64,000 nucleotides of DNA from a virus. A model generated the notes under the pieces. The model saw only the letters and a program-made list of their open reading frames with translations. It made no database searches and was not told the origin of the DNA. Shown here in pieces: positions 12,689 to 28,700 of this stretch. The position numbers and the translations under genes are program-made. The first letter of the stretch is position 1. Each line of letters starts with the position of its first letter. The DNA lies in the IMG/VR virus record IMGVR_UViG_3300042806_000299, positions 1 through 64,000 of that record; one strand, written 5' to 3'.

Positions 12689-13723
12689 ATGAAAACAGCC
12701 CTAGTGTTTGGTGCAGGTGGTTTTATTGGTAGCCATATGGTTAATAGACTTAAGTCTGAAGGATATTGGGTTCGTGGTGTTGATTTAAAATTTCCAGATT
12801 TTTCAGAAACAAAAGCAGATGAATTTATTAAAAAAGATTTATCTGTCTATGAAAATATTGAAAGCGTTATACATCCCGTGGGCACAATAGCATTTGATGA
12901 AATATACCAATTTGCTGCAGATATGGGTGGAGCAGGATATATTTTTACTGGCATAAATGATTCTCAAATTATGGAAAATTCTGCACTTATAAATCTTAAT
13001 CTTTTAAGGGCTCAATCAAGATTAAACGCAAAACACGATATTAATAAAACCAAAATATTTTATTCAAGTTCTGCTTGCATGTATCCTGACTATAAGCAGT
13101 TAGATGTAAATAATCCTGGCCTTAAAGAGTCTGATGCATACCCTGCAGATCCTGACAGCGAATATGGTTGGGAAAAACTGTTTAGCGAGAGAATGTTTTT
13201 AGCCTTTAATAGAAACAATAAAATTCCTGTAGCCATTGCCAGATATCACAATATTTATGGCCCAGAAGGAACTTGGGATGGTGGAAAAGAAAAGGCCCCT
13301 GCTGCAATATGTCGTAAAGTTATACAAGCAAAAGATTCTGTAGAAATTTGGGGTGATGGAGAACAAACCCGCTCATTCTTATACATAGATGAATGCATAG
13401 AGGCAACAAGAAGACTTATGCAATCAGATTTTATTGGACCAGTTAATATTGGTTCTGAAGAAATAGTCACTATCAATCAGTTAGTAGATATTGCCTGTAG
13501 TGTTGAAGGCAAGGTTTTAAGTAAAATGCATATCTCTGGACCATTGGGTGTTAGGGGTAGAAATTCCAACAATAATCTGATTAGAGAAAAGTTAGACTGG
13601 GACTATTCTATGTCTCTTAAGAGTGGAATTGAAAAAACTTATTTTTGGATTAAAAATCAAACAGAAAAAAACCATAATTATTATAATTTTTTAGATAAAA
13701 CTAGATCAGAAACTACTATTTAA
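12689..13723 (+). CDS. gme: GDP-mannose 3,5-epimerase
   Basis: 344-residue extended short-chain dehydrogenase. N-terminal Rossmann motif FGAGGFIGSHM binds NAD. SSSACMYP (Cys130), EYGWEKL (Tyr159, Lys163) and GGKEKAPAAICRK (Lys202) match the catalytic Cys, Tyr-x3-Lys and Lys of plant GDP-D-mannose 3',5'-epimerase, which converts GDP-D-mannose to GDP-L-galactose or GDP-L-gulose. RFHNIYGP-like ARYHNIYGP and GDGEQTRSFLYIDEC also match. GAGGAAG ribosome-binding site. Partner genes are the fucosyltransferase-like and sulfotransferase genes. The high similarity of motifs makes this the best identified enzyme of the block. Confidence 0.85.
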   Translation: MKTALVFGAGGFIGSHMVNRLKSEGYWVRGVDLKFPDFSETKADEFIKKDLSVYENIESVIHPVGTIAFDEIYQFAADMGGAGYIFTGINDSQIMENSALINLNLLRAQSRLNAKHDINKTKIFYSSSACMYPDYKQLDVNNPGLKESDAYPADPDSEYGWEKLFSERMFLAFNRNNKIPVAIARYHNIYGPEGTWDGGKEKAPAAICRKVIQAKDSVEIWGDGEQTRSFLYIDECIEATRRLMQSDFIGPVNIGSEEIVTINQLVDIACSVEGKVLSKMHISGPLGVRGRNSNNNLIREKLDWDYSMSLKSGIEKTYFWIKNQTEKNHNYYNFLDKTRSETTI

Positions 13724-14515
13724 ATGAATAAAAAATTATATTTTTTGCATATACCAAAAACTGGTGGAACATCAGTAAATAAACAACTTTTAGATAGTTT
13801 TGATAAAACTGAAATAAAAAAATATCCTCCATCACAACCACCACACAAAGACAATATGGATGAATACTCTTATATTACTGGTCATCTTGGAAGATACCCT
13901 ATTGAAAAAATAAAAGACGTAGATGTTGCATGTTTATTTAGAGAACCTGTAAACAGATCTATTAGCACATTTCTTTATATCTATGATAGATTTTTATTTG
14001 CATCACCTGAGTATTCAAAAATTGATAATTTTATAGATAAAGCAAGATATTATTTGTTTAAAGACGAAAGGTTTGTTAATCATAGAAATCTTCAGACACT
14101 GTTTATTTCTTCTACCCCTAAAATGATTACTTCAATAGACAAAGATGGTGATAATACTTTGAGAAAAGAATTTAATACTACGTGGGGTTTTGAGGATTCC
14201 GTTTTAGATTTAGATGTAGCAAAAAAACATATAGATAGTTTTAAAATTATTGGCACTTTAGAAAAACATTCTGAATTTATGCAAGAAATAAATGCTTGGT
14301 TTTTAAAAAATTATGAAGTAGATCTAGGTGTTAACAAAAAAAATCAAGTTTTTAATAAGACGCTTGTTGAGCATAATGGAGAAAAATATACTCCAAAAAT
14401 AATAATGGAAATGCTTACAAAACAAGAATTAGAAAAAATATTAGAGTTAAACAGTATTGATTTTGAAATTTACAACTATGTTCTTTCTAAAAAAAATAGC
14501 CCCACCCATAATTGA
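13724..14515 (+). CDS. Sulfotransferase family protein
   Basis: 263 residues. Starts MNKKLYFLHIPKTGGTSV: the IPKTGGTS loop binds the 5'-phosphosulfate of PAPS. ACLFREPVNRSISTFLYI supplies the 3'-phosphate-binding Arg/Ser motif. This identifies the carbohydrate sulfotransferase (Sulfotransfer_2) family. Likely adds sulfate to a glycan made or edited by the neighbouring enzymes, with PAPS from the host. ATG follows the epimerase stop directly. Its TGA lies in the loop/arm of the minus-strand terminator. Confidence 0.75.
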   Translation: MNKKLYFLHIPKTGGTSVNKQLLDSFDKTEIKKYPPSQPPHKDNMDEYSYITGHLGRYPIEKIKDVDVACLFREPVNRSISTFLYIYDRFLFASPEYSKIDNFIDKARYYLFKDERFVNHRNLQTLFISSTPKMITSIDKDGDNTLRKEFNTTWGFEDSVLDLDVAKKHIDSFKIIGTLEKHSEFMQEINAWFLKNYEVDLGVNKKNQVFNKTLVEHNGEKYTPKIIMEMLTKQELEKILELNSIDFEIYNYVLSKKNSPTHN

Positions 14516-20523: not shown

Positions 20524-21726
20524 ATGGCAGCAGGAAAAAGAATAGGTAAGAAGTCCCAAGCGTCAAATGACCACTTGGCACCATTAGCACCAACAATTAC
20601 TTCAATAACAGATGTTGGCGCAAGACCATTTGGTAGCGGTGCATTAGTAGTTAATTTTACTCCTAATCCAAACGGTAATGCTGCAACATCATATACAGCA
20701 GCAGGCTTTTGCAGTGTACACAATACTATCCACTCTGCAACTGGCTCAAGTTCTCCTTTAACAATTACTGGCTGGGGTTCAAATATTACTTCAACTATTA
20801 CAGTTACTGCAACTAATAGCGCAGGAACATCACCAGCATCAGAAGGAGTACTTTCACCATTAATTACAACAAGACCAGATAAACCTGCTGCACCTACTGC
20901 AACTACTCCTTCAGCAGGAGTTGATCGGATTACATGGTCTGCTCCAGCAAATGGTGGTAAGGCAATAACTAGTTATAACTGGGCATCTTCTGACGGTAAG
21001 TCTGGATCAACAGCATCAACATCTGTTGACGTTGCACAAGAACAAGGATCTGCTCAGACATACACAGTTACAGCAACTAATGCTAATGGAACATCTCAAA
21101 CATCTAATCCATCAAACAACGTAACTACAACATTCTCATTTGCTCCATTCGGTGCATTCGGTGCATTCGGTGCTTTTGGTGCATTCGGTGCATTTGGTGC
21201 ATTTGGATTTAGTTTTTCATTAAACATAAATACAGAAGTTCTTATGTCAACAGTTGCAGGTGAACCACAAGCATCAAAACCTGCTGGACAACTTCAAGTT
21301 GGAGATAAATTGTTAGCCTTAGATCTTGGAGACGAGGCTGATGACAATTCTCCAGCATATTGGCAAAATTGGACATTGCCTTCAAATTTCACTCTATCAA
21401 ATGAAAACGTTGTTGAAACTACAATTACATCAATTGGTATTGTCCCAGAAACAGAGTTCATTTATATTGATGGAGATATGTTTTCTCCTACACACTGGAT
21501 TTTGACTAAAAAAGATGGCATTGTAAAATTTGTTCAGTCATCAGAAATAGATACAACATATCAAAGATATTCATATACAGAAAATTCATTTGTTGATATT
21601 GTTCTTGTTGAAACTCTAGAGTTAAATATGCAAAAAGTTGCTATAAACTGTGAGCCACACGATAACTTCTTTACTAAGCAAATGCTTGTAAAAGACTTTA
21701 CGCCAAACAAAATACCGCCTGCTTAA
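20524..21726 (+). CDS. Fn3-like, GAF-repeat and Hint-domain virion protein
   Basis: 400 residues. Two Fn3-like beta sandwiches (about residues 18-115 and 118-205), a tandem Gly-Ala-Phe linker (207-227), then a Hint-like domain (about 230-390). Hint signs: SLNINTEVLM aligns with C-x4-T-x-V-L-M of inteins with Ser at the nucleophile position; LQVGDKLLALD; SPTHWILTKKDG (block B His); INCEPHDNFFTKQMLV (block F, 'pH.Nffa..iLV'). The terminal His-Asn is replaced by Lys-Asp, so splicing is unlikely but N-terminal cleavage, as in hedgehog-type Hint, is possible. AGGAG site. Last gene of the fibre block. Confidence 0.65.
   Translation: MAAGKRIGKKSQASNDHLAPLAPTITSITDVGARPFGSGALVVNFTPNPNGNAATSYTAAGFCSVHNTIHSATGSSSPLTITGWGSNITSTITVTATNSAGTSPASEGVLSPLITTRPDKPAAPTATTPSAGVDRITWSAPANGGKAITSYNWASSDGKSGSTASTSVDVAQEQGSAQTYTVTATNANGTSQTSNPSNNVTTTFSFAPFGAFGAFGAFGAFGAFGAFGFSFSLNINTEVLMSTVAGEPQASKPAGQLQVGDKLLALDLGDEADDNSPAYWQNWTLPSNFTLSNENVVETTITSIGIVPETEFIYIDGDMFSPTHWILTKKDGIVKFVQSSEIDTTYQRYSYTENSFVDIVLVETLELNMQKVAINCEPHDNFFTKQMLVKDFTPNKIPPA
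21142..21204 (+). repeat. Seven 9-bp tandem repeats (Gly-Ala-Phe)
   Basis: Units of GGTGCATTC with minor variants, in frame, coding Gly-Ala-Phe. Links the Fn3 and Hint parts of the preceding protein. Copy number could change by slippage without a frameshift. Confidence 0.85.
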
Positions 21727-22527: not shown

Positions 22528-22566
22528 AAACTCTATACTATAACTTTAGGTAGAGTTTTGTTTTTT
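22528..22566 (+). terminator. Terminator before the B12 operon
   Basis: Perfect 8-bp stem AAACTCTA with TAGAGTTT, 15-nt loop, then a T-rich tract. It isolates the ribonucleotide-reductase operon from upstream transcription. Confidence 0.75.
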
Positions 22567-22584
22567 ATAAAACTCTGCTATAAT
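22558..22584 (+). promoter_or_regulatory. Promoter of the B12/ribonucleotide reductase operon
   Basis: TGCTATAAT (hexamer 22579-22584) with a TTGTTT-like -35 15 bp upstream; the transcript carries about 28 nt of leader with GAAAGGAC before ATG 22619. No cobalamin riboswitch can fit this short leader. Confidence 0.6.
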
Positions 22585-22618
22585 TAACACTTAATCCGTT
22601 TTTGAAAGGACGATACAA

Positions 22619-24649
22619 ATGTCAGATTTTTTTAGTTTTAAACTTCCAGAAGAATTTATAGAAAAGTACAAAGTGCAAGATAGCCCATTTGGTTTTAAAG
22701 ATGCAGCAGAAAACTCACTTGGAGAAATTACTTTTATTCGTACATATTCTAGAATGAAGGAAGATGGAACTAAAGAAAGATGGCACGAGGTTTGTCGTCG
22801 AGTAATTGAAGGTATGTATTCAGTACAAAAGAATCATGCTAAAGAAAATCGCTTACCTTGGAATGACTATAAGGCACAGAAGTCTGCACAAGAAGCATTC
22901 CAAAGAATGTTTGAACTAAAGTGGACACCACCAGGACGAGGCATGTGGGCATTTGGAACTCCTATGACTATGGAAAAGAAAAACTCAGCAGCACTACAAA
23001 ACTGTGCAATGGTATCCACCAAGGACCTTGATAAGAATGATCCAGGAGCATTATTTGCTTGGGTTATGGATGCTCTTATGCTTGGTATTGGCGTAGGGTT
23101 TGATACAGTAGGACAGGATAAGAATTTCTCAATCTATACCCCAACAGAACCAGAAGAGATATTTGAAATTCCAGACACTCGTGAAGGTTGGGTAGAGTCA
23201 GTTAGAATTCTTATTAATTCATACCTAAGACCAAACCAAAGTATTCAGAAGTTTAACTATGATTTGATCAGACCTCTTGGAGCACCTATTAAGGGCTTTG
23301 GAGGCGTTGCATCAGGACCTGCACCACTTATTAAGTTGCATGACCAGATAGACCGTGTAATTGGCTCCAGAGGCGGAGAAACCCTAGACTCTCGTGCTAT
23401 TGTAGACCTTGTAAACCTTATTGGTACTTGTGTAGTATCAGGAAATGTTCGTAGATCAGCAACCCTTGCTTTGGGTAATGCAGGAGATGAAACATTTATG
23501 AATCTAAAGAACTCAGAGATGTTTCCAGAGCGTAACTCATTTGATCCAGAAAATCCAGGTTGGGCTTGGATGTCTAACAATTCTATTTCAGCAGAAGTAG
23601 GAACAAAGTATGAAGATTATGTAGATTTAATTACAGAAAACGGAGAACCAGGTTTTATCTGGCTTGATGTTGCTCGTAATTATGGACGACTAAAGGATGC
23701 GCCAGACGGCAAGGATTACCGTGTGATGGGATTTAACCCATGTGCGGAGCAGCCATTAGAATCATACGAATTGTGCACACTTGTAGAAGTGCATTTAAAT
23801 CGTCATGAGTCTAAGGAGGACTTTCTGCGTACCCTAAAGTTTGCATACCTTTATGGAAAGACTGTAACACTTGTTCCAACACACTGGCCACAAACAAACG
23901 GTATCATGCAACGTAATCGTCGTATCGGTACATCATTAACAGGTATTGCATCATTTGCAGATCAAAATGGTTTGCCAACTGTTCGTGAGTGGATGGATGA
24001 AGGATATACAACAATTCGTAAATATGATCACTCTTACTCAGAATGGCTATGTGTTCGTGAATCAATTCGTGTAACAACAGTTAAGCCATCAGGATCAGTT
24101 TCAATTCTTTCTGGTGCAACTCCTGGAGTTCACTGGGGTCCTGGAGGAAACTTCTTTCTTCGTGCAGTTCGATTTGGAAATACAGATCCAATGATGCACT
24201 TGTTCAAAGCAGCAGGGTACACAATTGAAGATGACGTAGTGTCAGCAAATACATCAGTAGTTTACTTCCCAATCAAGTCAGGTCATCCAAGATCTGAAAA
24301 GGATGTAACATTATTTGAAAAGATTGCACTTGCTGCAACTGCCCAGAAGTACTGGTCTGATAATGGTGTTTCTGTAACACTTTCATTTGATAAGGAAACA
24401 GAATCAAAGCATGTTGTCCCAGCACTTCATATGTATGAGGGACAACTAAAAGCAGTTTCATTCCTACCAATGGGAAACACTGTTTATCCTCAGCAACCAT
24501 ATACTCAGATCACTGAAGAACAATATGAGTCCTATATCGGCAAGTTAAAACATATTGACTTTAGTGCAATTTATGATGGTGTAGATAATCTTGAGGCACA
24601 AGGCGAAATGTATTGCACTACCGATTATTGTGAAATAAAAACCAACTAA
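22619..24649 (+). CDS. nrdJ: Class II adenosylcobalamin-dependent ribonucleotide reductase
   Basis: 676 residues, monomeric RTPR type (Lactobacillus leichmannii-like): reduces ribonucleotides to deoxyribonucleotides with a B12 radical and no oxygen requirement. Key residues visible: Cys129 in LQNCAMVST, Asn373-Pro-Cys375-Ala-Glu377 in GFNPCAEQPLE, Cys386 in YELCTL (11 residues after Cys375, as in RTPR Cys408/Cys419), and tail pair Cys666/Cys671 in YCTTDYCE, which relays electrons from thioredoxin or a substitute. GNVRRSATLALG and TVKPSGSVSILSGATPG are typical active-site loops. First of a four-gene operon that also makes its cofactor; it provides dNTPs for phage replication. Confidence 0.92.
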   Translation: MSDFFSFKLPEEFIEKYKVQDSPFGFKDAAENSLGEITFIRTYSRMKEDGTKERWHEVCRRVIEGMYSVQKNHAKENRLPWNDYKAQKSAQEAFQRMFELKWTPPGRGMWAFGTPMTMEKKNSAALQNCAMVSTKDLDKNDPGALFAWVMDALMLGIGVGFDTVGQDKNFSIYTPTEPEEIFEIPDTREGWVESVRILINSYLRPNQSIQKFNYDLIRPLGAPIKGFGGVASGPAPLIKLHDQIDRVIGSRGGETLDSRAIVDLVNLIGTCVVSGNVRRSATLALGNAGDETFMNLKNSEMFPERNSFDPENPGWAWMSNNSISAEVGTKYEDYVDLITENGEPGFIWLDVARNYGRLKDAPDGKDYRVMGFNPCAEQPLESYELCTLVEVHLNRHESKEDFLRTLKFAYLYGKTVTLVPTHWPQTNGIMQRNRRIGTSLTGIASFADQNGLPTVREWMDEGYTTIRKYDHSYSEWLCVRESIRVTTVKPSGSVSILSGATPGVHWGPGGNFFLRAVRFGNTDPMMHLFKAAGYTIEDDVVSANTSVVYFPIKSGHPRSEKDVTLFEKIALAATAQKYWSDNGVSVTLSFDKETESKHVVPALHMYEGQLKAVSFLPMGNTVYPQQPYTQITEEQYESYIGKLKHIDFSAIYDGVDNLEAQGEMYCTTDYCEIKTN

Positions 24650-24657
24650 GGAGAAAA

Positions 24658-25110
24658 ATGAAAAGAGTATTAGCGTCACTAGCAATTATTTTATTTGCTT
24701 TTGTTGGACTACAAGGCATAGATAAATCAAAAGATAGTTGTATCAATTTGTATGTTGATTATGGTCCACTAGATGGCGGTACAAAAATAACAAAGTGTGT
24801 TGATGCATCTACCAAGACAATTGCGTTAGAAGTTTTAAAAAAGGCTAATCTTGAAATAGAAGGCACTAAGAAATATGGTTTAGCAGTTGTTTGTAGAGTT
24901 AACAATTTGCCAAACAAAAAGGTAGAGTCTTGTGAATCAATGCCATCAGAAAAGGCATACTGGGCAATCATTATTAAAGAAAAGAAATTAATTCCTTTCC
25001 CTAAAAGTGAGTGGGGTTGGGGACAACTTGCAATAGATCAACAACTTTTAAGTCCAGGAGATTCAATAGGTTTGGTTTGGGCTAATAATGGAAAAGTAGT
25101 ATTCCCATGA
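24658..25110 (+). CDS. Secreted DUF4430/transcobalamin-C-like protein
   Basis: 150 residues; AAGGAG site. N-terminal signal or anchor (MKRVLASLAIILFAFVGLQG). Then VDYGPLDGG, TIALEVLKKANLEIEG, YGLAVVCRVNNLPN, KAYWAIIIKEKKLIPFP, WGWGQLAID and LSPGDSIGLVWANN: the order of the small DUF4430 fold that is related to the C-terminal beta domain of transcobalamin and intrinsic factor and appears in actinobacterial proteins next to cobalamin transporters. Four Cys may form disulfides. Placed between the B12-dependent reductase and the B12 adenosyltransferase, it is a good candidate for extracellular cobalamin capture. Binding itself is inferred. Confidence 0.6.
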   Translation: MKRVLASLAIILFAFVGLQGIDKSKDSCINLYVDYGPLDGGTKITKCVDASTKTIALEVLKKANLEIEGTKKYGLAVVCRVNNLPNKKVESCESMPSEKAYWAIIIKEKKLIPFPKSEWGWGQLAIDQQLLSPGDSIGLVWANNGKVVFP

Positions 25111-25241
25111 AACTATTAGATAAACACGTAGATCAAAAATCTTCTTATAAAATAATTGTTCAGTTTGCACTGACCTTGCTTTGTTTGCATATAGCCAATA
25201 TTAAAACAATAGATATTTGGCGTTCTTTGACAGGACACTAA
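25107..25241 (+). CDS. 44-residue membrane peptide of the B12 operon
   Basis: MKLLDKHVDQKSSYKIIVQF then ALTLLCLHIANI, one membrane helix with a basic cytoplasmic side, and a short tail ending SLTGH. ATG overlaps the previous stop (ATGA) and its TAA overlaps the next ATG (TAATG), so it is translated as part of the operon. May anchor or couple the secreted neighbour to a transporter; function unknown. Confidence 0.55.
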   Translation: MKLLDKHVDQKSSYKIIVQFALTLLCLHIANIKTIDIWRSLTGH

Positions 25242-25735
25242 TGGTACATCTAACTCGTATTTATACGAAAACTGGTGATAACGGTCAGACATCAACTGCC
25301 ACCAATGAAAGAATACACAAGGGAAGTGATTTGATTGAGGCAATTGGGTCGGTAGATGAAGCAAACTCTGCCATAGGAATGGCAACTGATTTTCATAACG
25401 ATATTATAGATAGAATACAGAGTGACTTGTTTGATCTTGGTGCAGAACTATCTGGTGCCCCAACAATAACAATATCAGAAGATAGAGTTACCTATTTAGA
25501 AAATATAATTGATGACTATAACGAATACCTAGAGCCACTGCATTCTTTTGTTCTACCTACTGGCCCACTTCATAATGCAAGAACAATTGTGAGAAGGGCA
25601 GAGCGTGAGGTTTGGAAGGTAGAAGGTTTAAATATAAATATTGCAAAGTATTTAAACAGGCTCTCAGATTTACTATTCGTAATGGCAAGATATCACAATA
25701 AAGGCAATGAAAAGTTATGGATTCCCAGAAATTAA
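25241..25735 (+). CDS. pduO: ATP:cob(I)alamin adenosyltransferase, PduO type
   Basis: 164 residues from MVHLTRIYTKTGDNG; a longer in-frame start is less likely because ATG 25241 overlaps the upstream stop. TKTGDNGQTS is the signature ATP-binding motif. IEAIGSVDEANSAIGMA, NARTIVRRAEREVW (Arg-Arg-x-Glu) and YLNRLSDLLFVMAR complete the five-helix PduO fold. Adds the 5'-deoxyadenosyl group to cob(I)alamin, giving the adenosylcobalamin cofactor required by the nrdJ product three genes upstream. The reductant for Co(II) must come from the host. Confidence 0.9.
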   Translation: MVHLTRIYTKTGDNGQTSTATNERIHKGSDLIEAIGSVDEANSAIGMATDFHNDIIDRIQSDLFDLGAELSGAPTITISEDRVTYLENIIDDYNEYLEPLHSFVLPTGPLHNARTIVRRAEREVWKVEGLNINIAKYLNRLSDLLFVMARYHNKGNEKLWIPRN

Positions 25736-25744
25736 TTTTTACCC

Positions 25745-25753
25745 TGCTATAAT
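25745..25753 (+). promoter_or_regulatory. Promoter of the large LamG-like gene
   Basis: TGCTATAAT flanked by CCCT and AGGG, followed by TAGGAGA before ATG 25771. Confidence 0.6.
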
Positions 25754-25770: not shown

Positions 25771-28700
25771 ATGTCTAGTCCATCAAATTTATATGCAGAA
25801 AAGGTGTTTGCAGAGCACCCAACTGTGTTGTGGGCACTAGATGATAAAGCAGACTATATCTCTCTTATATCTGAGGAACAAAGATCCGTATATTCTTGGG
25901 ATATTTCTGGTGGAACGGCAAGCAATTTTACAGAGGCTATAGATGAACCATTTACCAATAGTTCTGTTACAAAAATTCTAGGTAATTTAACTACAGAAGA
26001 TTTTGGTGAGATTGTATGTATAAGCAATGACCTAGTAAACTTTTCAGAATTAAATTCTTACATGTCAACATTTTCTGTAGGAGCATACATTTATTCAATT
26101 AGTTCTTATATTTCTAGCATTGAAATTGGATACGAATATTATGACACAACAACAGGAACAAATATTCAAAAATTAAAAAACTACAACACATCTGTCTCTA
26201 ATAATTGGATGTTTGTATCTGAAACATTTGATATACCAGATGAAAATACAACCTTTAGAGTTGTGTTAAAAATAAGATATCTTGGTAATGCATCATCTAC
26301 AGATGATTATGCTTTTTTGTTTAATGGGGTTAGTGTTGGTCAATGGTCAGAAGAGTTTCATTCTTCATCACTTGGCATATCAAAAATATCTTTACCAACA
26401 TCAATACCGCTAACAGCAACATCTGCTATAGAGGCCAAGTCTTATGGACTAAAACAAACTCCTGGCTACTACTTCATTTCAAACAATGCGTTAGTAGCAA
26501 AAAATTCTGGAATACCTCTTGTTTATGGGTCAGGTAACACAACAGTTCTTGTCGAAAATGTAAATTCTCCATCATTAATTCTTCCTGGCTTTGGTTTTTT
26601 AAATGAGGATGGGAAGTTTAAAGAGTATACCCTAGAAATGTGGATGAGAATAAACTCAGATTCACCAACCAAAAAAAGAATTTGTGGTCCAATTAAATCT
26701 AACGACGGAATATATGTTGACGGTCCTTTTATAACATTAAAGATTGGTAAAAACTATTCTTCTCACTATGTTGGAGAATGGACAAGGCCAATGCTTATGC
26801 ACATAAGAATAACTAATAATTCTGCAAGTTTATTAATAAATGGAGAACAGGTAATATCTTTAAATTTTATAACAGATGAACTATCTTTTCCAGAAAAATA
26901 TGACGAAGATGGTAAAAATCAAGATTGGATAGGATTTTATGCGTATGAGGATGTATATCCAATAGAAATTGATTGCGTTGCAATATATCCTTATCAAGTT
27001 CCAGCATTGGTAGCAAAAAGAAGATTTGTTTATGGCCAAGGAGTAGAAGTTCCAGAAAACATTAATGCATCTTACAGCGGGACATCTATGTTTATTGATT
27101 ATGCTTTTGCTGATTATACAAAAAATTATTCTTATCCAGATCTAGTTAAATGGTCAGACGCTTCTATAGATAACCTTAATACTTCATCAAACTATTTGTC
27201 ATGCCCAGACTATTATTTACCAGAATTATTTTTTAGCAATAAAACTAGCCAAGATTTTTATAATGATTCATATCTTTTGCCAAACGAAAGTAACCTTTAT
27301 GTAAAAATGAGACCGTCTGCTTCCTGGAATGACACAAACGGATATATACTTTTTGATAAGTTAAATGTGACTAACAATGAAATTAAGTGTTTTTACGGCG
27401 TGTTTAAAATATTATCTACTCCAACATCAAATCAAACCTTTTTCAAAATAGAAGACGAATCAACAAATAATAGTTTTTCAATTGAGTTAAAACCAAACTT
27501 AGAAATTGAATATAAGTTAAAATTTAATACATTAGAAGAGGTTATATATAAAACAATTATAGCAAGAGTTGGAGAAGAACTCACAGTAGGGCTTGATATT
27601 TCTAAATTTACAGAAAACTATGGAAGCAGTGCTAGTTTATTTTTTGGAAATCGTGCATCTTTAAAATTATATGTTGGTGGAAGCAAAGAGTTAGATAAAA
27701 CATTTACTGGTAATATATACAAGGTTGGATTTTCTACAGAAAGAAACTATTCTTACATAGCAGAACTGTTTAATGAATCTGGTGTGCCAGTACAATTTGA
27801 AGATGTGTTTGATAAGTTTGGACAATATATTGATTATGACGCTGGTGACTACCAGGGAGCAAGTCCAGATTTTTGGAACTACGTTTTAGATGGAGGATCA
27901 CCTGCTCAATATTCTTCTGTTAAATTGATTAACCATATTGCAAGTTATACACTAAGCCCAAAAAAATATTTTGAAACATTTACTTTAGATATAGATATAG
28001 ACGGATATTGGGAAGATAAAGTTGCTCTTAGACATTTTGCTCAGTATGTATTAGATGCCAAAGGCAATGAACAATATGACTTAGATTTTCTTCAATTTAA
28101 TATAAACTATCCATCTCCATCAAAATATACAGAGCAAGAAACTTCATCTGAATTGGGATGGAGTTATCAAGAATTACAAGCAGAATATCAAAGCCCAATT
28201 CAAAGAGGTTATGACTCTTTAGATAATCAACTATATACAGGATATAACGACTACCAAGACCTTGCAAATAAATCTACAAAAAGTTATAAGTACGATACCT
28301 CAAATTCTCTTGTAAAATCCTATGTAACATTTCAATACCTTGAAAATACATCTACTAACACAGAGTCATTTTTTACAACAACAGAACTTGCACCTAAAAA
28401 CGGTATCGTAAATCCAGTAGGTAATTGGATTAATACAAAATATGAAGTAGTTGATGGAATGTTAATTTATCCTCCAACTGGAATAGATTTTAATGACCTG
28501 TATGTTGTTCTTCACTTAAACTTTAAAGTTCTTGGAATATTAAATAAGCCTATTAACATTAGAAGTTTACAACTTGCTTCTCAAGCATACAATGATTCTT
28601 CTGCTAATCCTATTGGAACTAGATTTGGTGTTCCTGTTTATCCATACAGGAAGTCTGGAATTTACTATGATTATAAAGGAGTTAATCCATACACAATTTA

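Follow-up and report, generated by a model that had tools for sequence, protein, structure and literature searches.

A phage operon joining a class II ribonucleotide reductase to a predicted transcobalamin-like membrane pair and a cobalamin adenosyltransferase

Genes of the operon

The stretch analysed here (the window) comprises 64,000 nucleotides, positions 1 to 64,000 of the 72,878-base virus record IMGVR_UViG_3300042806_000299, in which portal, protease, head, tape-measure and replication genes indicate a tailed phage. Four of its genes are the subject of this work: the ribonucleotide reductase gene nrdJ and the three genes that follow it, for which the working names D4430, TM and ATR are used (second, third and fourth gene; Table 1). 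Together they form a likely operon for the acquisition and use of vitamin B12 (cobalamin). The genes are tightly packed, with a gap of 8 nt followed by overlaps of 4 and 1 nt, as described in the first-pass annotation, which a model had made from the letters alone; the single-pass membrane peptide of 44 residues that it reported is also present. All four genes are under purifying selection, with median ratios of nonsynonymous to synonymous substitution (dN/dS) of 0.09 for nrdJ, 0.26 for D4430, 0.31 for TM and 0.06 for ATR.

Table 1. Features of the operon and its surroundings in the window
Feature	Position	Strand	Remarks
Promoter-like extended -10, TGCTATAAT, 5' of the operon	22576-22584	+	Suggestive only
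nrdJ, class II adenosylcobalamin (AdoCbl)-dependent ribonucleotide reductase, ribonucleoside-triphosphate reductase (RTPR) type	22619-24649	+	676 aa
D4430, predicted membrane-anchored extracellular transcobalamin-beta-like domain, four conserved cysteines	24658-25110	+	150 aa; fold matches, homologue context
TM, single-pass membrane peptide, C-terminal WRSLTGH	25107-25241	+	44 aa; kept with D4430
ATR, PduO-type cob(I)alamin adenosyltransferase	25241-25735	+	164 aa from ATG
Second TGCTATAAT, 5' of the next gene (25771)	25745-25753	+	Suggestive only

By sequence, the reductase is a class II, RTPR-type, B12-dependent enzyme. The Lactobacillus leichmannii RTPR 1l1l is the sole solved relative found by sequence (E 1e-91). 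The homology to RTPR takes in the class II insertion domain, and Cys129, Cys375, Cys386, Cys666 and Cys671 align with its active-site and tail cysteines, which bears out the class II residues listed in the first-pass annotation. Pfam matches were obtained to PF17975 (3e-31) and PF21995 (2e-14; 53.9 bits against a cut-off of 27), while the TIGR02505 score of 338.4 bits is slightly below the cut-off of 340.05. Class II reductases are known in phages, as in the marine RTPR virioplankton (PMC10547690). Those of Mycobacterium phage Gaia and Actinomycetia phage DSL-LC01 are homologous to the window reductase, with 60-61% identity, but nrdJ of DSL-LC01 has no adjoining D4430, TM and ATR.

Judged by its motif and family scores, the last gene encodes a PduO-type ATP:cob(I)alamin adenosyltransferase, in agreement with the earlier assignment. 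It contains the motif TKTGDNGQTS and passes the curated cut-offs of PF01923 (E 3e-46; 158 bits against 24) and TIGR00636 (149 bits against 108), with the Mycobacterium tuberculosis enzyme 2g2d as its nearest PDB relative (E 3e-32). It differs from known members in being shorter (164 aa) and in lying on a long phage-only branch. The chemistry of such an enzyme is adenosylation, not the adenylation that had been written into the proposed module.

The promoter-like sequence TGCTATAAT occurs four times in the window against 1.28 expected, a count that was reached in 4 of 100 shuffles and is thus only weakly above chance. About 30 nt of leader separate the first site from the operon. The second site precedes the gene that starts at 25771, which would fit transcription of the four genes as a single unit. 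No riboswitch was found at the phage operon, permissive threshold included, or at the other phage copies, in line with the earlier remark that the short leader holds no B12 riboswitch. The phage copies are therefore outside the cobalamin-riboswitch regulon; a riboswitch of this type precedes 13 of 14 bacterial counterparts (see below).

Predicted fold and topology of D4430 and TM

D4430 begins with a hydrophobic helix that has neither a lipobox nor an evident cleavage site. The helix noted in the first-pass annotation is thus present, whereas its label of signal peptide is better replaced by signal anchor. Searches with D4430 in Pfam, PHROGs, NCBIfam and the PDB sequences gave nothing useful, and neither D4430 nor TM has a significant family match. 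AlphaFold2, run on the window D4430 together with 15 relatives, gave a model with a predicted local distance difference test score (pLDDT) of 79, in which predicted strands at 67-70 and 74-81 follow a helix at 56-62. These strands may correspond to the beta-hairpin that members of the transcobalamin-like clade have inserted after the helix.

When this model was compared to the PDB by Foldseek, the top match was the bacterial domain 3u7z, which carries a putative metal-binding annotation, and next came the beta domain of human transcobalamin in its apo and cobalamin-bound forms, followed in the same list by whole transcobalamins and intrinsic factor. A second model, made for a homologue that is 46% identical, had 12 transcobalamin entries and two of 3u7z as its best 14 matches. 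Because the two models agree and no other folds stand near the top, assignment of D4430 to the transcobalamin-beta fold is credible as a prediction. Absence of any such structural match had been named beforehand as an outcome that would refute the proposed module; a match was obtained. Burroughs et al. defined a transcobalamin-like clade within the SLBB superfamily and predicted B12 binding for its bacterial members where the context supports it (PMC1796856). With the beta domain of transcobalamin and intrinsic factor and with the bacterial DUF4430 proteins of this clade, D4430 shares the predicted fold and the extracellular placement. Compared to both, it is phage-borne and has two extra conserved cysteine pairs.

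TM ends in a conserved histidine, in some bacteria a cysteine, for which an outward orientation is predicted. As a speculation, this residue may act as an axial cobalt ligand; both amino acids are known to coordinate cobalt in proteins that bind cobalamin (PMC6072759).

Conserved linkage in freshwater phages

The gene set recurs in about 100 freshwater viral contigs. Scans of 2.9 million viral contigs returned 94 relatives of ATR and 108 of D4430, while there were no D4430 relatives among 50,697 annotated phage records. Linkage was counted at loci with enough sequence, and these counts are not all independent because some contigs are reached twice by overlapping loci. D4430 has TM directly behind it in 78/78 viral loci, and the next gene after the pair is ATR in 75/77, both far above chance; a recognisable reductase precedes in 51/66. 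The genes and packing of the four-gene set hold as first described, but the invariant core is the D4430-TM pair and not the set as a whole. In the open-licence papers on transcobalamin-like or B12-uptake genes of phages, no report of the set D4430-TM-ATR-nrdJ was found.

In one group of phages (L139-L154) the trio of D4430, TM and ATR lies inside the replication module and not beside nrdJ, and two of these phages carry a class II reductase elsewhere. At the same replication-module site, L070 and L074 have ATR without the pair, so that D4430 and TM are gained or lost together. At L129 and L130 the reductase next to the trio is also of class II but only distantly related (27% identity).

Phage ATRs fall into two clades of the ATR tree. 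The window ATR sits on a long phage branch (support 100/100), and those of L105, L110 and L129 are nested among freshwater Actinobacteria (99/87 and 100/98). According to this tree, ATR was acquired at least twice behind the same D4430-TM pair, the same gene order being assembled with two separately acquired genes. A random association of neighbours had been named beforehand as the outcome that would speak against the proposed module. What was found is a pair that stays together while ATR is acquired twice and the reductase is swapped or unlinked.

Bacterial counterparts of the pair

A scan of genome contigs with D4430 gave no relative; a profile search of genomes then found them. Homologues are present in 6 of the 151 Nanopelagicales genomes drawn. 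All six belong to a single genus, in which 14 of 25 genomes carry a homologue. This genus of streamlined freshwater Actinobacteria, to which likely hosts of the phage or their relatives belong, is probably Candidatus Nanopelagicus (acI-B). The bacterial D4430 proteins (14 loci) are 35-46% identical to that of the window. In all 14 loci D4430 is followed by a one-pass peptide of 53-56 aa ending in WR[FLY]W[GA][GA][HC], in some with a final Y, and a profile of this peptide scores 19.2 against the phage TM, compared to at most 12.6 in 30 column shuffles. An AdoCbl/cobalamin riboswitch lies directly 5' of the bacterial pair in 13/14 loci, and the fourteenth contig ends there.

No genes of an energy-coupling factor (ECF) transporter were found at the D4430 site in these Nanopelagicus-type genomes. 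An importer of the BtuC or BacA type was found in none of six such genomes, and the BacA type, considered as a candidate in the hosts, was absent from nine genomes. Class II NrdJ is encoded by all six. Capture of a whole host operon by the phage was considered and rejected, since the host ATR adjoins murA and ATP synthase genes and sits away from D4430.

Two side observations concern single genomes. The contig CAMCXX010000001.1 (L178, G029) is titled 'Bifidobacterium breve', yet it groups with the D4430 genus and has an acI-like ATR context, so the title looks wrong. In another genome (G050, L273 4203-4343) an AdoCbl-type riboswitch, at 46 bits below the gathering score, lies 5' of a class Ib nrdHIEF-like operon; class II NrdJ is encoded in this genome as well, so that B12 may decide which reductase is used.

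Relation to ECF cobalamin-type transporters

In Planktophila-type genomes, the chromosomal site of D4430, between an aldo/keto reductase gene and gcvT, holds a riboswitch followed by genes for an SCO2322-family secreted protein, EcfT, EcfA and EcfS. This agrees with published work, in which acI genomes are described as having an ECF module preceded by cobalamin and AdoCbl riboswitches (PMC5301498). The SCO2322-family protein occurs in 99 of the 151 Nanopelagicales genomes, but all six that have D4430 lack it, so the two are mutually exclusive in this set (P 0.0014, assuming independent genomes).

More widely, D4430 relatives were found in 45 of 395 Actinomycetes genomes. In 10/10 other actinobacterial loci that were fetched, a D4430 with a lipobox lies directly 5' of EcfT-EcfA-EcfS, and the EcfS proteins of these loci are 38-48% identical to the riboswitch-controlled EcfS of Planktophila. 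By these results D4430 belongs to cobalamin-type ECF operons as their extracellular component. No riboswitch was seen in the nine loci of this type that were searched. In the genus whose pair is related to that of the phage, D4430, the riboswitch and the TM peptide are retained without ECF genes at the site. EcfT, EcfA and EcfS are likewise missing from the phage operon, so that the pair is related to a part of an ECF system and is not a member of one. The phage copy differs further in having no riboswitch and in the addition of ATR and nrdJ.

A functional parallel is possible with BtuM, in which B12 is acquired without an ECF module and a cysteine serves as cobalt ligand. The architectures differ: BtuM is multi-spanning and of the S-component kind, whereas D4430 and TM each pass the membrane once. 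Descent of TM from the first helix of EcfT was rejected, the profile score being no better than that of column shuffles. As a separate observation, the SCO2322-family protein of the Planktophila ECF operon (L270 4956-5492, L271, L272) may be related to D4430 by circular permutation. Of this protein only the C-terminal half can be aligned, and weakly, with the N-terminal half of D4430 (P 0.0015).

Other features of the window

An S-adenosylmethionine decarboxylase homologue lies at 2376-2765 on the minus strand (PF02675, E 9.5e-13), and a similar gene is found directly 3' of ATR at L105 (4989-5369). Genes for a nucleotide-sugar epimerase and a sulfotransferase (12689-14515) precede the fibre genes. 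The fibre-like protein encoded at 20524-21726 has Phe-Gly-Ala repeats and a C-terminal part that resembles an intein/hedgehog (Hint) domain by eye; Pfam gave no match to this protein at E 0.001.

Proposed function and alternatives

The operon is most probably one for B12 acquisition and use, in which the pair captures the cofactor, ATR activates it and the phage reductase uses it. D4430 and TM would together make up a capture unit for cobalamin, anchored in the membrane and exposed at the cell surface. This unit is related to the extracellular subunit of the cobalamin-type ECF transporters of Actinobacteria, in the reduced, ECF-less and riboswitch-controlled form seen in Nanopelagicus-type genomes. 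The captured B12 would reach the cytoplasm through a host permease not recognised here or through the two single-pass proteins themselves. The phage ATR would then convert it to adenosylcobalamin, with which the class II reductase would supply deoxynucleoside triphosphates for phage DNA. Given the short leader without a riboswitch, the phage copy would be made even when AdoCbl would repress the host copy. Cobalamin binding, delivery and uptake, enzyme activity and a benefit during infection are what we infer from the gene identities, the fold match, the riboswitch and ECF context of the relatives, and the conserved and convergent linkage.

Several observations weigh against this interpretation. 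The Foldseek E-values of the D4430 models are modest (0.001-0.1), and the Pfam DUF4430 model does not match D4430 up to E = 1, nor do the NCBIfam models. D4430 is therefore best described as a divergent, predicted member of the transcobalamin-like clade by fold and not by profile, so that the DUF4430/transcobalamin-C likeness first proposed stands for the fold and falls for the family profile. Compared to transcobalamin, it also lacks the alpha/alpha toroid that encloses B12, the beta-like domain being present alone. Two loci keep D4430 and TM with no ATR behind them (L135 263-933 and L136 1084-1754), and several contigs with the trio have no reductase, all of them possibly fragments. Among six bacterial D4430 genomes of the Nanopelagicus type, EcfT is clear in one and marginal in a second, leaving most without a recognised importer. 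Finally, the operon encodes no permease, so the import step is missing from it. For this last reason the label 'self-contained' of the first-pass annotation is not supported, whereas its sequence of capture, activation and use is well supported, also by the riboswitches and ECF operons seen in cells.

It is unlikely that the pair captures B12 for a purpose other than feeding the phage reductase, as a spare copy of a host surface receptor that sustains host uptake during host shut-off, with ATR and nrdJ adjoining since metabolic genes of phages cluster. Such an arrangement would suit the loci without an adjacent nrdJ (it is adjacent in 51/66) and those phages in which the replication module contains the pair and nrdJ lies far away. 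Chance clustering does not, however, explain an ATR that stands behind the pair in 75/77 loci and was apparently acquired twice at the same place, and a class II reductase gene is present even in two phages whose trio is unlinked from it. We find it quite improbable that the ligand is another tetrapyrrole or precursor (cobinamide, haem) or cobalt, which would make the pair a general corrinoid or metal scavenger. The AdoCbl riboswitches ahead of the bacterial pair at 13/14 loci, the conserved ATR partner in phages and the place of transcobalamin among the best fold matches all argue for cobalamin, even though superfamily ligands are diverse (PMC1796856), 3u7z is annotated as a putative metal-binding protein and Nanopelagicales are described as haem auxotrophs (PMC10202952). 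Very little credence can be given to D4430 being part of the virion, serving adsorption or acting as a decoy on the cell surface that blocks other phages, with an incidental fold: its position between fibre and portal genes in the window and a single tail-fibre match (E 0.24) are outweighed by the trio in the replication module of other phages, by the bacterial loci, where AdoCbl riboswitches precede the pair or ECF operons include D4430, and by the lack of any significant match in a library of predicted viral structures.

An extension of the B12-acquisition reading goes further, namely that D4430 and TM by themselves constitute a new kind of B12 uptake system, complete without ECF or BtuCD, which serves the B12-auxotrophic Ca. 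Nanopelagicus, common bacteria of lakes, and was acquired by the phages of these bacteria. At present this must be regarded as doubtful.

Significance

The operon combines a phage reductase cassette with a gene pair akin to the extracellular subunit of ECF cobalamin transporters. It suggests that the virus would enable the cells it infects to collect and activate B12, a scarce vitamin that its replication requires, and the operon gives concrete genes for the question whether B12-dependent phages raise the B12 uptake of their hosts. On the bacterial side, the genus carrying the pair has a B12-dependent reductase, yet most of the genomes tested have no recognised B12 importer. As acI-B bacteria are predicted AdoCbl auxotrophs (PMC5574706), the pair is a candidate answer to how they import B12. 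Both questions, phage-driven uptake and import by acI-B, become testable with two small proteins.

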